Source: Pseudohaliea rubra DSM 19751
GTDB taxonomy: Bacteria > Pseudomonadota > Gammaproteobacteria > Pseudomonadales > Halieaceae
Direction: 5' to 3'
Length of the DNA: 64,000 nt
Assembly (NCBI RefSeq): GCF_000764025.1
Contig: NZ_KN234747.1
Coordinates: forward strand, 1-64,000
Below, piece after piece: positions 48,827 through 55,176 of the stretch. The notes under the pieces are model-generated. The model did not search any database and was not told the DNA's origin. It saw only the letters and a program-made list of their open reading frames with translations. The position numbers were made by a program, and so were the translations under genes. How positions within the stretch are numbered: position 1 is the stretch's first letter; each line of letters begins with the position of its first letter.

Positions 48827-50098
48827 CTAATCGGGGCTGCGTCGGCGTCGCCCGCTCCGGCGGCCGCGTTTGCCGTCGCCCGGGTCCCGGGCCGCCAGCT
48901 CGCGGCTACGCGCCTCGAGGTCCAGTTCCTGGAAGCGCGTCCACCATTCGCCGACGCCGCCGGTGTCCTCGCCGGCGATCTCGCGGAGCAGGAGGAAGTC
49001 ATAGGCGGCCCGGAAGCGGCGCTGGTCGGGCAGCTCGGCTGCGCGCTTGCCCCGCGGACTCTCCAGCCGGTGCTGGAGTTCCCAGATCTCGCGCATGGGC
49101 TGGCTGAAGCGTTTCGGAATGGCGATCCGGTGACAGGCCTCGGCGATGACCTGCTGGGCCGCACTGTGCATGGCCTGTGTGGGCGGCTCGCCCCGATCCC
49201 GGAGCTGCTCTGCGCGCAGGCTGGCCGCGGGCCAGAGCAGCGCTGCGAGGATGAAGGCCGGGGTCACGGGCCGGTCTTCCGCCACGCGCTGGTCGGTGCT
49301 GGCCATGGCCGCGGCCAGGAGATCTGCGGCGCGGACATCCCGCTTCATATGCTCTTCGGCCTCCGGGAACAGGTGCTCTAGGAGGTGATGCCGGCGCAGG
49401 AGCGTCAGGGTGGCCGCGCCGTAACCGGCAAGGAAAAGCTTCAGAATCTCGTCAAAGAGGCGCGGTGCGGGGATGGCATCGAGCAGCCCTGCCGACTCCT
49501 TGATGGCCGCGGCGGTGTGATGCTCAATGCGAAAGCCCAGCTTGGCCGCGAAGCGCACCACACGAAGCATGCGCACCGGGTCTTCCCGGTAGCGCTCGTG
49601 CGGGTCGCCGATGATGCGTATGAGTCGTGCCTGCAGGTCAGCGAGGCCGTCGGCATAGTCATGGACCGCGAAGTCGCCGGCGTTGTAGTAGAGGGCGTTG
49701 ATGCTGAGGTCGCGGCGCACCGCGTCCTCCTCGAGGGTGCCGTAGACATTGTCGCGCAGGAGAACGCCGCTTTCGCCGCGCCGGCCTTCGCCCTCGCCAT
49801 CGTGGTGGCCCCGAAAGGTAGTGACTTCAATGATCTCCCGGCCGAAGCGGACATGCACGATGCGAAAGCGCCGGCCGATGATCCGTGAGTTGCGGAACAG
49901 TCCGTGCACCTCTTCAGGCGTTGCGTCCGTAGCGACATCGAAGTCTTTCGGATGCCCACCGAGGAGCAGGTCGCGCACGGCACCGCCCACGAGATAGGCC
50001 TGGAAGTCCTGACCGCGTAGCCGGGCCATGACTTTCAGAGCACTGGGACTGATGTTCTTGCGGGAAATGCAGTGCTGGTCCCGGGGAATGACCTTCAA
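48827..50098 (-). CDS. pcnB: Poly(A) polymerase I
   Basis: The 423-residue nucleotidyltransferase adds poly(A) tails that mark RNA for decay. LVGGAVRDLLLGG, the DxD in KDFDVATDATPEEV and GRRFRIVHV form the head domain; RRDLSINALYYN and the RNA-binding arm follow. The basic C-terminal tail (GKRGRRSGRRRR) is typical. No in-frame ATG precedes the conserved KVIPRDQHCISRK, so TTG 50098 is proposed. The much longer open frame runs through the RNA gene upstream and is not credible as coding. Confidence 0.9.
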   Translation of the reverse strand: MKVIPRDQHCISRKNISPSALKVMARLRGQDFQAYLVGGAVRDLLLGGHPKDFDVATDATPEEVHGLFRNSRIIGRRFRIVHVRFGREIIEVTTFRGHHDGEGEGRRGESGVLLRDNVYGTLEEDAVRRDLSINALYYNAGDFAVHDYADGLADLQARLIRIIGDPHERYREDPVRMLRVVRFAAKLGFRIEHHTAAAIKESAGLLDAIPAPRLFDEILKLFLAGYGAATLTLLRRHHLLEHLFPEAEEHMKRDVRAADLLAAAMASTDQRVAEDRPVTPAFILAALLWPAASLRAEQLRDRGEPPTQAMHSAAQQVIAEACHRIAIPKRFSQPMREIWELQHRLESPRGKRAAELPDQRRFRAAYDFLLLREIAGEDTGGVGEWWTRFQELDLEARSRELAARDPGDGKRGRRSGRRRRSPD

Positions 50099-50163
50099 GC
50101 GCGAGCATCTCTCATGGTTGAAAAGCGAGATGGTAGCACAGTCCCCGTAGTAACCGGGGAGAT

Positions 50164-50371
50164 CGGGGGAGATACCTCCCCCGCACACGTCCACCCCGGG
50201 ACAATTATTCTTATCATTACCATTATTTTTAGCGGGCGCAACCGGGTCGGCCTGGCCAGTACCCGGATGGGTGGCATAAATGAACGACGGGGAAGCGTGC
50301 TTCCCCATCCAGGTCCATTTTTTTTCTTGAGCTTATTCTTATTGCCGCTGTTTTATTTTTATTGTTGCGCC
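50164..50371 (-). ncRNA. Putative CrcZ-like Hfq-decoy small RNA
   Basis: The predicted transcript starts near 50371, about 12 bases past a sigma-54 element, and runs towards pcnB. It contains three A-rich ARN-type clusters: 50366-50349 (AACAATAAAAATAAAACA), 50344-50315 (CAATAAGAATAAG then CAAGAAAAAAAA) and 50232-50201 (CTAAAAATAATGG then ATGATAAGAATAA). These are separated by GC-rich hairpins at 50289-50306 (GGGGAAG/CTTCCCC) and 50164-50183 (CGGGGGAG/CTCCCCCG). In Pseudomonas the gene between cbrB and pcnB is crcZ, an RNA that titrates Hfq/Crc by such motifs under CbrB-sigma-54 control. The 3' end is uncertain because the last hairpin lacks a U-tract. No protein-coding signal is seen in the region. 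Confidence 0.72.
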
Positions 50372-50381
50372 CCCGTAGAAT

Positions 50382-50397
50382 TGCAGAGCCTGTGCCA
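50382..50397 (-). promoter_or_regulatory. Sigma-54 (-24/-12) promoter of the CrcZ-like RNA
   Basis: TGGCAC-AGGCT-CTGCA on the minus strand keeps the invariant GG and GC exactly 12 positions apart and matches the consensus TGGCAC-N5-TTGCA at all but one base. Confidence 0.82.
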
Positions 50398-50473
50398 TCA
50401 ATGAATAAATCTTTTATAAACAATGAGTTGTGATTTTTTGTGAGGAGGGCGGTAATGGGTCAAGGGGCTGGTT

Positions 50474-50521
50474 TGTTACCTTTGGCCACTACGGTTTGTT
50501 ACAGAATGGGGGCTGGGTAAC
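50474..50521. promoter_or_regulatory. Candidate CbrB upstream activating sites
   Basis: Two TGTTAC half-sites (50474-50479 and 50497-50502, both within TTTGTTAC) and one inverted GGTAAC (50516-50521) lie roughly 100-150 bases upstream of the predicted RNA start. That distance is normal for a sigma-54 activator. TGTTAC half-sites have been described for CbrB targets in Pseudomonas. The cluster also overlaps the end of the cbrB transcript. Confidence 0.65.
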
Positions 50522-50534
50522 GCCCCCGGCAGGT

Positions 50535-51947
50535 TCAGGACGCGGCCTTTTTCCCGCGGGGGGCACTCTTCTTGCGCGGGATCTCGAAGCGCTGGCGGCG
50601 CTCCCAGAGGCATTTGCGGCTGATCCCCAGTTTCTGGGCGAGTTCGGTCTCGCTCATGGAGTCCTGGTGCTCGATGACAAAGCGCTGGAAGTAGTCTTCG
50701 AGAGACAGATCTTCCTGGGGATCGGAGTTGCTGTGGCTGGCCTGACGTTTTTTCGGGCTGCCGATGCGTTCGCCGCGCAGGCGATTAATGTTCACCAGCT
50801 CGAGGTCGATGCCCAGCGTTTCGTTGTCGATCTCCTCCCCTTCGGTGAGGATGACCGCACGCTCAATGGCGTGCTCCAACTCGCGCACGTTGCCTGGCCA
50901 CTGGTAGGTCGTGATGGCCTGGATGGCCCGGGGCGAAAGGTACATGGTGCCGCGACCGAAACGCTCGGTCTGCCGGGCAAGGAGGGTCTCGGCCAGGTAA
51001 AGAATATCCTTGCCGCGGTCCCGCAGAGCGGGGAGGTTCAGACGCAGGACGTTGATACGGTAAAAGAGGTCCTGACGGAAGCGCCCCTCCGCCGCAAGGG
51101 TTTGCAGGTCCCGGTGCGTGGCGCAGATAAGACGGACGTTGACCTTGCGCGAGTGGACGGAGCCGATGCGGCGGATTTCTCCCTCCTGGATGAAGCGCAG
51201 CAGTCGCGCCTGGGCCTCCATGGGAAGTTCGCCGATCTCGTCGAGGAACAGTGTCCCGCCGTCGGCTGCTTCGATGAGGCCCATGCGGTTGGTGTTGGCG
51301 CCGGTGAACGCACCCTTCTCGTAGCCGAAAAGCTCCGATTCTATGAGCGTCTCCGGAATGGCGGCGCAGTTTACGCAGATCAAGGCTTCCCCGGCCCGCC
51401 TGCTCTGCCGGTGGATGGCCCGCGCAACCAGTTCCTTGCCGGTCCCGGTCTCGCCGAGGACGAGCACGGTGGAGTCTGTGGGCGCAAACTTGGCAACGTG
51501 TTCCAGCAGCCGTTGCATGGACGGACAGTCGCCGACAATCGCCGGGCCGTCCCCGGTGCCGGCGGAGACGGTCTGCATGGCCGTCGCGTCCTGCCGGGGA
51601 TGATCGTTGATGATGCGCTTGACCGCATTTAGCATATCACCGTGGTCGAAGGGCTTGGCGATATAGTCCACGGCGCCCATACGCATGGAGTCGACGGCAG
51701 AGCGCAGGCTGGCATAGCTGGTCATGATGAGCACGGGCACCTTGCCTGCCTTGCGGATCAGGTCCGTGCCTGGCGCTCCGGGGAGACGCAGGTCGCTGAT
51801 GATGAGGTCGAACTCACCGAGGGCGTGATTGCCTTCGGCCTCGGTTACAGAGCCGGCCTCGGCAACGGCATAGCCCGAGCGCTCGAGCAAGCGGCGGAGG
51901 GCGGACCGAATGACCGCCTCGTCCTCGACGACAAGAATCTGCTGCAT
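50535..51947 (-). CDS. cbrB: Sigma-54-dependent response regulator CbrB
   Basis: The 470-residue NtrC-type activator has a receiver (phospho-Asp 52, IISDLRLPG), a sigma-54 AAA+ domain ([25 protein letters not shown] with the intact GAFTGA loop, [12 protein letters not shown]) and a Fis-type HTH at the end ([21 protein letters not shown]). ATG 51947 begins the receiver; the frame extends 14 codons further without support. It lies 51 bases after cbrA. The neighbourhood dksA-gluQ-cbrX-cbrA-cbrB-pcnB gives the name. It should activate the RNA gene just downstream. Confidence 0.94.
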
Positions 51948-51998: not shown

Positions 51999-54980
51999 TT
52001 ATCCAGTCACCCGGCTCCCGGCAGTGTCGACCAGCCCCGCAAAGGCGGCGTCATAGTGTGCGGCGCGCAGGGCCAGGGTGACCCGGGTTCCGCGCGCAGA
52101 AGCGGTCGGGCCCGGGCTCTCGATGCGCACGCTGCCGCCCATGTCTTCGAGGATGCTGTAGACCAGCGGCAGGCCCAGCCCTGTGCCCCGGCCCGGCTCC
52201 TTGGTAGTAAAGAAGGGTTCGAAAACCCGCGGCAGCAGCTCCGGGGCGATGCCCTGCCCACAATCATCGACGTGGATCTCTACCGCGCTGCCGCCTGTCG
52301 CGGTATCACCGACGGTCACAGCCGCGCCGTCGCCGGAGGCATCCCGGGCGTTGCCGAGAAGATTGATGAAGACCTGAAGCAGGCGCTGGCAGTCGGCGAG
52401 GACCAGGGTGTCGCGACGGCAGTCGTTGACAAAGGCTACCGGCCGCGCGTCCCGGTCCAGGGAGAGCAAGCTGATGGCTTCGTCGACACAGTCGGCCAGG
52501 TTGCAGGGCTCGAGCCGGGTATCGCCGGCCCCGGAGCCGAGGTGGGAGAAGTTCACCAGTGACTCGACGATGCGGCTGACCCGGCCGGTCTGCGTGAGGA
52601 TGTCATCGGCGGTCTCGCGCACCTCCGCCGGGTCGCAGGAAGCGGCAAGATTCTGCGCCAGGCAGGCGATGCCGGTGATCGGATTGCCGATCTCATGAGC
52701 CACACCGGCGGCGAGGCGGCCGATGGAGGCGAGGCGCTCGTTGTGCAGCACCTCGTCCTGGAGCAGCTGGTAGTCGGTGATGTCCTCCACCAGCAGCAGC
52801 CGGTCGGCGTCCGCCGTCGGCGCGCTGCAGTGCAGGGTGATCCAGCGGGGCGCTGCCGGGGCGCCGCCGGCCAGCTCACGTTTGAGCAGTGTGCCGGGCT
52901 CCGCTGCCAGGGCCTCGGCGAAGACTGCATGCCAGGGCTCGGCAAGGGTTGTCCAGCGCGCGCCGACGGCCTCTGCCGCGGCGATTCCCGTAAGTTCGGC
53001 GAGGCGCCGATTCCACAGCAGCACCTCGCCGTCCACGCCCAGGGAGCAGAGCCCCACGGGGAGCGCCTCGAGGGTCTGGCGGTAGTGACGGCGCAGGTAG
53101 TCGAGGTCGGCAGCAAGACCGGTGAAGCGCCCGGTGACCTTCTCCAGGCGTTGCTCGAGGAGGGCGAAGTCCCCGGCCTCGCCAGGGTAACTCTTGCTGT
53201 AGGGCAGGCAGCGGTCGACGATTTCCAGGGCCAGGGCCGGCCCGAGCATGCCGGACAGGTTCGCTTCGATGCGGCTGCGCAGGTGACGCAGGGCGTAGGG
53301 GCGGTTTTCGGTCTCTTCGAAGCGCAGCTCCCGCAGCGCCCGGTCCAGCTCCGCCCGCGCTGTGTCCTCGCCGAGCGCCCGCGCCAGCGCAGGCACAAAG
53401 TCCGCCGCGGCATTTACCGGCAGGGTCCGCCGGTGCGGTCGGCTGCCGGAATCCATGGAGCAGATCTCCGCCGCCACCTCTTCCTCCCGGGAGCGCCGGG
53501 TCAGGAGCGAGCCGATGATGAAGGCTGCGGTATTGGCAAGGAGAGCGAGCATGCAGCGCAAGGTCCAGTCGTCGCTGTGGCTCGCGGTGATGCCCAGGGT
53601 GTTGTTGGACAGCACCGGGAGCACGAGCGCCAGGAACCAGATGGCCAGCCCCAGGGCCAGCCCGGCGAGGAGGCCGCCCCGGTTGGCACGGGGCCAGTAG
53701 GGCGTGGCGATGACCGCCGGCAGGAACTGCAGCGTGCCACTGAAGGCCAGGAAGCCGAGCTCGGGCAGCGATTGCCCCGTGCCGAGGAACGTGAAGAATG
53801 CGTAGCCGCCCAGGATGAGCGCGGTGATCAGGCTCCGCCGGAACCACTTGAGCTGCCGGTACAGGCCGTGGTCGCCTGTGGCGCGCAGCAGCCGGTTCGG
53901 CAGCACCAGATAGTTCAGGCACATGTTCGCCAGCGCCAGGGTGGCGACGACGATCACCGCGCTGGCTGCCGAAAGACCGGCGACGAAAGCGACACCGCTT
54001 ACCCAGGGCGCGCCGAGGGCTGCGCCGAGCCCGAGGCCCGCAAAGGAGGCGGGCAGGGTACTGCCGGCGGCGACCGCGCCCCAGAGTATCGGCAGCACCG
54101 GTAACGCCAGCAGCAGCAGGTAGAGCGGCAGCCCCCAGCTGGCTGCGCGCAGGTGCCGGCTGTCGCTGTTCTCCGCGAAGGCCATATGGAAGATATGCGG
54201 CATGCACACGGCGCCGGCGAAGAACAGCAGCAGTAGCAGGCGCGCGGCGCCGGCGGGCAGCGCCGACTCCTCGCCGCCGAGGACGCCAGGGTTGGCGAGA
54301 AGCCATTGCCCGAGGCCGCCGAAGCCGCCGAAGACCGGCCCCAGGGCGACCGCCATGAGCAGCATGAGGGCCCCGAGCTTGACCAGGGACTCGAAGGCGA
54401 TAGCGGCCACGAGCCCGGGGTTCCGGTTGGGACTGGTGGCATTGCGGGTGCCGAAGAGGATGGTGAAGACCGTGATGATGACGCAGAAAAGCAGCGCCAG
54501 GCCGTCGCGCCGGCCCCCGCCGGGGAGCAGGTCCAGACCGCCGGCGAGGTGGTGAATGCTGTCGGCCACGGTACGGATCTGCAGGGCCAGGAGCGGCAGT
54601 AGCGTGGCGCACATGGCCAGGGTCACGGCGGCGCCCACCCAGGGGCTGCGGAAGCGGAAGGCAAGGAGGTCAGCCAGGGACGCGAGCTGATGTACCCGGC
54701 ACAGGCGCAGAATCGGGCGCAGCAGCAGCACCGCGAGCAGGAACATGAGCGCAATGCCGAGGTAGTAGAGAAGGTAGTGATGGCCGTAGAGCGCTGCGAG
54801 GGTGAAGACACCGTTGCTGGCCATGCCGCCGCCGATGACCCCAAGAGACAGGACATAGGTCGCCGGGTGCTCGATAACCCTCGCCGGAATCGCGCCCCGA
54901 TCGCCGAAATAGCCCACCAGGAACAGAACGCTCAGGTAGGCAATAATGGCGAGGAGGACCTGGTCCGGGCTAAAGCTCAT
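51999..54980 (-). CDS. cbrA: Sensor kinase CbrA with sodium:solute symporter-like domain
   Basis: The 993-residue protein has an N-terminal SLC5/SSS-like region of about 13 membrane helices (1-500) and a STAC-type helical linker (about 530-630). A PAS domain (about 650-740), HisKA with His about 762 (AGVAHEIGNP) and an HATPase domain (NLLGNARDAS, DDCGQGI, GRGTGLGLPLV) follow. In Pseudomonas, CbrA senses carbon/nitrogen status and phosphorylates CbrB; histidine has been reported to be transported by this type of module. ATG 54980 overlaps the cbrX stop by 11 bases; the longer open frame continues through cbrX and is a shadow. Confidence 0.94.
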   Translation of the reverse strand: MSFSPDQVLLAIIAYLSVLFLVGYFGDRGAIPARVIEHPATYVLSLGVIGGGMASNGVFTLAALYGHHYLLYYLGIALMFLLAVLLLRPILRLCRVHQLASLADLLAFRFRSPWVGAAVTLAMCATLLPLLALQIRTVADSIHHLAGGLDLLPGGGRRDGLALLFCVIITVFTILFGTRNATSPNRNPGLVAAIAFESLVKLGALMLLMAVALGPVFGGFGGLGQWLLANPGVLGGEESALPAGAARLLLLLFFAGAVCMPHIFHMAFAENSDSRHLRAASWGLPLYLLLLALPVLPILWGAVAAGSTLPASFAGLGLGAALGAPWVSGVAFVAGLSAASAVIVVATLALANMCLNYLVLPNRLLRATGDHGLYRQLKWFRRSLITALILGGYAFFTFLGTGQSLPELGFLAFSGTLQFLPAVIATPYWPRANRGGLLAGLALGLAIWFLALVLPVLSNNTLGITASHSDDWTLRCMLALLANTAAFIIGSLLTRRSREEEVAAEICSMDSGSRPHRRTLPVNAAADFVPALARALGEDTARAELDRALRELRFEETENRPYALRHLRSRIEANLSGMLGPALALEIVDRCLPYSKSYPGEAGDFALLEQRLEKVTGRFTGLAADLDYLRRHYRQTLEALPVGLCSLGVDGEVLLWNRRLAELTGIAAAEAVGARWTTLAEPWHAVFAEALAAEPGTLLKRELAGGAPAAPRWITLHCSAPTADADRLLLVEDITDYQLLQDEVLHNERLASIGRLAAGVAHEIGNPITGIACLAQNLAASCDPAEVRETADDILTQTGRVSRIVESLVNFSHLGSGAGDTRLEPCNLADCVDEAISLLSLDRDARPVAFVNDCRRDTLVLADCQRLLQVFINLLGNARDASGDGAAVTVGDTATGGSAVEIHVDDCGQGIAPELLPRVFEPFFTTKEPGRGTGLGLPLVYSILEDMGGSVRIESPGPTASARGTRVTLALRAAHYDAAFAGLVDTAGSRVTG

Positions 54981-55146
54981 CGAAGTTCCGGCGCCGCTGG
55001 TTCCAGTAGACTCCGGCAATGACTGCCCCCCAGACAATGAAGGGCCGATACCAGTGCTCCGGGTCGGCGAACATCCAGCTTTCAATTCCCGGGAAGAGGA
55101 TGACAGTGAGAGCGACAGCGAGCAGCAGGCCGCGATCGAGGTACAT
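54970..55146 (-). CDS. cbrX: Small membrane protein CbrX upstream of cbrA
   Basis: A 58-residue protein starting MYLDRGLLLAV has two hydrophobic helices (about 6-20 and 35-48, VWGAVIAGVYW) joined by a short acidic/aromatic loop, and a basic end NQRRRNFDEL. Its stop overlaps the first codons of cbrA (ATGAGCTTTAG), so translation is coupled. A small ORF at this place, called cbrX, is known upstream of cbrA in Pseudomonas. It may assist CbrA assembly or signalling (inference). The ribosome-binding site is weak (GGGA). Confidence 0.8.
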   Translation of the reverse strand: MYLDRGLLLAVALTVILFPGIESWMFADPEHWYRPFIVWGAVIAGVYWNQRRRNFDEL

Positions 55147-55176
55147 GGCGGTGAATCCCGTTGGCCTGAGGTGATA

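Follow-up and report, generated by a model that had tools for sequence, protein, structure and literature searches.

The 436-bp gap between cbrB and pcnB of Pseudohaliea rubra DSM 19751 very probably encodes a divergent, shorter crcZ ortholog, i.e. an RNA driven by CbrB and sigma-54 that would sequester Hfq and relieve catabolite repression (we put the probability of this reading at roughly 0.87). The window, by which we mean the whole 64-kb stretch of DNA that was analysed, carries on its minus strand cbrA, cbrB, the gap and pcnB, followed on the same strand by folK, a deoxynucleoside-kinase-like gene, panB, panC and an acetyl-CoA-synthetase-like gene (these last read by eye from the ORF list). 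The stretch of about 215 nt before pcnB is A-rich, hairpin-bearing and apparently non-coding. Upon poor carbon supply, CbrA would activate CbrB, which, bound on three half-sites, would drive transcription from the sigma-54 promoter at 50397. The resulting A-rich RNA, starting at about 50371, would then bind the distal face of Hfq, together with Crc, and this capture would free catabolic mRNAs from Hfq-Crc repression. In the family to which the window belongs, the RNA would mostly be built from two modules in tandem, each comprising two A-tracts plus a hairpin. We infer the transcription of this RNA, its dependence on CbrB and sigma-54, its binding to Hfq and its effect on catabolite repression; gene content and synteny, the promoter and half-site sequences, the A-tract enrichment, the conservation and the covarying arms are observed. 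The features, all on the minus strand, are as follows.

51999..55160, minus strand: cbrA, transporter-like sensor kinase with an uncertain start codon (PAS, HisKA and HATPase_c, Pfam)
50535..51947, minus strand: cbrB, NtrC-type sigma-54 activator (Response_reg and Sigma54_activat, Pfam)
50474..50522, minus strand: three putative CbrB-type half-sites (sequence; conserved in the family alignment)
50382..50397, minus strand: predicted -24/-12 sigma-54 promoter TGGCACAGGCTCTGCA (sequence; same place in relatives)
50150..50371, minus strand: putative CrcZ-type RNA, start at about 50371, 3' end between about 50280 and about 50150
50282..50372, minus strand: module 1, with A-tract 1 within pairing arms, A-tract 2 and a hairpin (model R1, described below)
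50289..50316, minus strand: terminator-like hairpin GGACCUGGAU-GGGGAAG..CUUCCCC with a weak tail (pattern and terminator scan)
50158..50242, minus strand: module 2, with the second group of A-tracts and a G-rich hairpin, without a sigma-54 site of its own (model R1)
50129..50141, minus strand: extended -10-like element CTGTGCTACCATC upstream of pcnB (block CTGTGnTAGACT conserved in the alignment)
48827..50098, minus strand: pcnB, poly(A) polymerase, TTG start assumed (TIGR01942, E 5.5e-155)

The half-sites that the original prediction had noticed past cbrB were located by script: on the minus strand, CGTTAC lies at 50522 and GTAACA (TGTTAC on the plus strand) at 50502 and 50479. One is forward and two are reverse, with 14 and 17 nt between them, a layout that resembles the F1-R1-R2 arrangement with 12-16 nt spacing reported for P. 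putida crcZ in a section of PMC6296734. An ATTGTTT motif at 50424 is situated between the half-sites and the promoter. The latter (50397-50382) reads TGGCAC-N5-CTGCA with GG-N10-GC spacing, in agreement with the near-perfect and correctly spaced -24/-12 element that had been claimed, and it is one of two matches to the pattern TGGCA(C/T)N6TGC in the 64 kb, both strands scanned. CbrB half-sites together with a sigma-54 promoter, here recognized on sequence grounds only, are a feature of the CrcZ family (RF01675). The proposed start near 50371 fits what is seen with the Rfam CrcZ model: in most loci retrieved by it, TGGCAC lies about 27 nt ahead of the start of the match.

The A-rich tracts fall into two groups, at 50367-50317 and at 50231-50202, with a G-rich hairpin after each. 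The predicted A-rich tracts and hairpins are thus present, the number of clusters being two and not three. The 222-nt stretch 50371-50150 contains 9 AANAANAA motifs, against a mean of 0.74 in dinucleotide shuffles (0/2000 reach 9), and is the densest AANAANAA cluster of the window. As in CrcZ (RF01675), there are several A-rich tracts that look suited to the distal site of Hfq. The folding energy of the stretch (-82.7 kcal/mol) is lower than that of 200/200 shuffles (-66.6 +/- 4.9 kcal/mol; z -3.29). A conserved coding extension of pcnB was also considered and was lowered, since the pcnB frame stays open upstream of the assumed start for anything from 3 to 282 nt across the 51 gaps that reach pcnB, a variation that argues against such an extension. 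The claim that the region has no coding signal agrees with this result for the pcnB frame, the one frame compared in these gaps, although in the window itself this frame is open for 234 nt and the ORF list includes an ORF from 50308.

Downstream gaps were taken from 64 cbrB loci. L038 (truncated cbrB) and L032 (which contains L020) were left out, and of the 62 loci kept, 51 reach pcnB and 11 are without pcnB in range. In 48 of the 51 cbrB-pcnB gaps, window included, a sigma-54 site is accompanied by two or more A clusters within 130 nt, which occurs in 0/100 shuffled sets; the gaps without this signature are those of L040, L122 and L131. Both the synteny of A-rich RNAs between cbrB and pcnB in relatives and the conservation of the -24/-12 element with its A clusters, on which the original prediction had been made to depend, are therefore corroborated. 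Among the 11 loci without pcnB in range the signature is present in 3, and some of the remaining 8 stop at a contig end. The distance from cbrB to pcnB varies from 261 to 1364 nt. When 23 sequences from the family and from near relatives are aligned, the half-sites, ATTGTTT, the promoter and the first A-tract pair are conserved in this order, followed downstream by a GGACCUGGAU-headed hairpin, a variable spacer, another A-tract pair with a further hairpin of this kind, and the CTGTGnTAGACT block. This block, at 50129-50141, is perhaps an extended -10 promoter of pcnB. The pattern TGTGnTAnMnT occurs in the last 140 nt of 26/39 gaps, and a sigma-70 scan found no sigma-70 promoter.

Each module consists of two A-tracts, the first between covarying arms, and a hairpin headed by a near-invariant ACCUGG; the window RNA carries two modules in tandem. 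From 39 first modules, 33 were kept in an alignment (A1), L032, L034, L035, L113, L114 and L128 being omitted for duplication, length or divergence, and model R1 (89 positions, no promoter) was built from these 33. The gaps of L129 and L132 (318 and 270 nt) hold one module each. Two promoter and A-tract units per cbrB-pcnB gap are found in L035 (gap positions 247 and 589) and L127 (125 and 516). Genome G080, from another family, has four one-module R1 matches on three contigs (L178 on C138, L204 on C444, L205 on C300), each preceded by a sigma-54 site; neither cbrB nor pcnB was matched in the 2.8 kb of L178, one of these loci. From the one-module gaps, the doubled units and the G080 copies, we infer that the single module, about 100 nt long, is the basic unit.

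RNAalifold applied to A1 found the terminal hairpin alone, with ACCUGG unpaired. The arms around A-tract 1 were missed because they are out of register, and a swap test was therefore used. It covered 29 of the 33 first modules (L008, L020, L025 and L129 were dropped because the anchor missed their tracts). A covariance search had been suggested with the original prediction, and here pairing with the own partner scored 340 versus 286 (sd 12) for swapped arms, which reached the own-partner score in 0/2000 swaps in one run and 1/2000 in another, a number that is not a probability because swapping breaks relatedness. Two displaced controls in the same 29 modules gave no excess pairing, and a stricter-anchor subset (7/33 first modules) gave 72 versus 63.1 (18/1000). 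The arm sequences are diverse, e.g. CGGC/GCCG, GGUA/UACC and GCAUC/GAUGC. The A-tract 1 stem of the window is a short one of 3 pairs. When the window RNA is folded by itself, the minimum-energy structure has long-range pairing without a local A-tract 1 stem, ACCUGG being partly paired.

The terminal hairpin is near-invariant, with double-sided changes in 1/7 pairs. Its pattern matches once in the window genome, where the leader of the module 2 hairpin deviates (GACGUG for GACCUG). A pattern search of the 30 loci retrieved by the Rfam CrcZ model did not detect the ACCUGG hairpin at the RNA; a looser hairpin pattern gave one match in these loci (L156), away from the RNA. Owing to the weak tail of the first hairpin, termination there may be partial. 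The leader contains GGA in 32 of the 39 gaps holding the leader pattern. In the other 7 GGA is replaced and ACCUGG kept, and on this account the idea that the conserved hairpin is simply a CsrA site was lowered. Nor is there the series of GGA in hairpin loops that is a feature of CsrA/RsmA decoys: each module has one GGA, in the leader beside the stem. A part of PMC6061880 reports that RsmA and RsmN bind P. aeruginosa CrcZ via other GGA motifs, and the hairpin may for this reason still have a link with CsrA.

The genome of the window (G000; 3.2 Mb, 86 contigs) belongs to the Halieaceae, i.e. outside the Pseudomonadaceae, and the impression that the DNA did not come from Pseudomonas was right. 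Its CbrA shares 46.6% identity over 1047 alignment columns with the product of the gene upstream of cbrB in L203, and its CbrB 62.5% with the CbrB of the same locus, taken as reference from genome G318, whose CrcZ exceeds the Rfam cut-off. For CbrA, Pfam at E 0.001 lists the kinase and PAS parts and no transporter domain. A CbrB match at E<=1e-100 is found in 54/58 genomes, window genome included. Residues 1-81 of the 84 of Hfq align to P. aeruginosa Hfq (E 2.4e-41), and RpoN and CsrA are also encoded, as judged by similarity. The Crc-like protein (254 aa) has ORFs resembling rph and pyrE as neighbours (by eye). The two top-ranking solved structures matched by it are chains named Catabolite repression control protein (4.5e-65, which is P. 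aeruginosa Crc, and 6.6e-65); 2myi, labelled exodeoxyribonuclease III, is nearly as good (2e-63), and the next exonuclease entries follow at 2.3e-48. The surroundings of the exonuclease active site look altered in its sequence. Relatives of this protein at E<=1e-20 are found in 55/58 genomes, several at 27-41% identity that are probably exonucleases. CbrA, CbrB, RpoN, Hfq and Crc, the set of factors that accompanies CrcZ, thus have relatives together in the window genome, and with the conserved sites they sustain the proposal of a CbrA-CbrB-sigma54-RNA circuit of Pseudomonas architecture. Possible partial losses were noticed in a few genomes: G022 has a good Crc match without CbrB and G038 has CbrB without a Crc match, both in incomplete assemblies, and in G052 and G053 the Crc-like matches are weak throughout.

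The Rfam CrcZ model (RF01675) matches the window RNA on the right strand over 50374-50269 with 21.8 bits (E 0.0014), part of the model being matched. As this is far under the gathering score of 95 bits, the RNA was filed as CrcZ-like and not as a member of RF01675. The hit, weak as it is, lies between cbrB and pcnB on the same strand, where CrcZ is found, and so supports the claim that the position is that of crcZ in Pseudomonas. Model R1 gives 77.8 bits (E 4.4e-11) for module 1, a sequence that itself belongs to the training set, and 31.3 bits (E 0.029) for module 2, the sole other match in the genome at E<=10; this search found no crcY or crcX copy elsewhere in the assembly (98.81% complete). 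Across the order, R1 matches 63/293 genomes at E<=0.01, spread over 14 families; 12 of these belong to the window's own family and none of the other 51 is known to be in the training set, with a reservation for L033, a named contig. The Rfam CrcZ model matches 68/293 genomes at E<=0.01 (14 over the cut-off), the union of both models being 112/293 with 19 shared. The order and class searches used stricter filters that lose weak matches, and the order-wide Rfam CrcZ search misses the window genome. Among 369 genomes of the class, R1 at E<=0.001 found the window genome alone, at least four other members of the order being negative there. Apart from the window, 29 R1 loci were fetched, and in 28 of them the match is flanked by cbrB and pcnB, one on each side. 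Both genes are present in 25 of the 30 loci retrieved by the Rfam CrcZ model, pcnB alone in 4 and neither in 1. R1 also matches within the over-cut-off CrcZ of genome G260 (E 7.6e-4). L159, L164 and L165 have a CrcZ-type RNA and pcnB, with cbrB unmatched in the fetched locus; cbrB may lie elsewhere in these genomes.

Could the region serve chiefly as a long 5' leader for pcnB, controlled by CbrB, with A-tracts that regulate PcnB synthesis in cis? We consider this unlikely. That pcnB comes next in 51 of the 62 kept loci, that the second hairpin stops about 60 nt before the assumed pcnB start and that the lone terminator-like site on the minus strand has a weak tail would all suit such a leader. 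However, a conserved extended -10-like block, with its pattern in 26/39 gaps, stands between the RNA and pcnB, the gap ranges from 261 to 1364 nt and contains two sigma-54 and A-tract units in L035 and L127, and the L178 copy of G080 sits behind its sigma-54 site with cbrB and pcnB unmatched in 2.8 kb. A base-pairing small RNA with ACCUGG as seed, whose A-tracts merely load Hfq, appears still less probable. The near-invariance of ACCUGG beside the hairpin and its unpaired state in the alignment fold would favour it, but ACCUGG is partly paired in the fold of the window RNA, the pattern search did not locate the leader at the RNA of the 30 Rfam-CrcZ-fetched loci, and several A-tracts per RNA are presumably more than loading needs. 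That the promoter is conserved without a functional RNA, as an enhancer or a silent relic, is hardly credible given that the A-tracts, the hairpin and the paired arms downstream are all conserved.

A Hfq-sequestering crcZ ortholog is thus the preferred reading, and a tentative, rather doubtful extension of it can be envisaged. The ACCUGG-NN-GGGG hairpin is kept across several families, which points toward a possible second function. In part of the order the RNA could be a two-headed regulator, in which the A-tracts titrate Hfq-Crc and the hairpin contacts a further partner, be it CsrA/RsmA, another protein or base-paired mRNAs. Each module of about 100 nt would be a complete RNA unit, copied in tandem or to dispersed sites. 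Such an RNA would switch a second regulon along with carbon control.

CbrAB is called exclusive to Pseudomonadaceae in passages of PMC8871633 and PMC6296734, and so is the cbrA-cbrB-crcZ synteny, known in Pseudomonas and Azotobacter, in a passage of PMC8871633. By their sequences, the genomes compared here contradict the exclusivity of CbrAB. We found no description of crcZ outside Pseudomonadaceae in the literature searched, a search with most subscription journals outside its scope. An excerpt of PMC5073097 reports cbrA and cbrB transcripts from a mesopelagic community. If our reading is correct, the carbon-control circuit would be older and common to much of the order, including marine bacteria, and the curated CrcZ family of Rfam would cover just part of the RNAs of this circuit. 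The one-module forms would constitute small natural constructs for determining the minimal number of A-tracts of a working Hfq decoy.

According to a part of PMC4063720, P. aeruginosa CrcZ is 407 nt long, contains six A-rich stretches and titrates Hfq, to whose distal face it binds. With CrcZ (RF01675; Pseudomonas, Azotobacter) the RNA described here shares the position between cbrB and pcnB, the half-sites, the sigma-54 promoter about 27 nt ahead, the repeated A-tracts and a G-rich hairpin, aligned at model positions 276-379. It differs in its length of about 215 nt, in its two repeated modules, in the ACCUGG-headed hairpin and in scoring under the gathering threshold; that it would be a shorter and different RNA had been anticipated correctly. 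CrcX is a Pseudomonas paralogue with the promoter type and A-rich body of CrcZ. CrcY of Pseudomonas is described, in a section of PMC6296734, as a CbrB-driven RNA paralogous to crcZ. Promoter type and A-rich body are common to CrcY, CrcX and the RNA of the window, whereas the window genome is without a second R1 locus (E<=10) and has both modules at one locus. The four dispersed one-module RNAs of G080 recall the multiplication of CrcY and CrcX. RNAs of the RsmY/RsmZ type are decoys that titrate CsrA/RsmA. The RNA described here would likewise titrate a protein and has GGA in the leader of 32/39 gaps, but, in contrast to these decoys, it is dominated by A-tracts and carries one GGA per module in place of a series of GGA loops.
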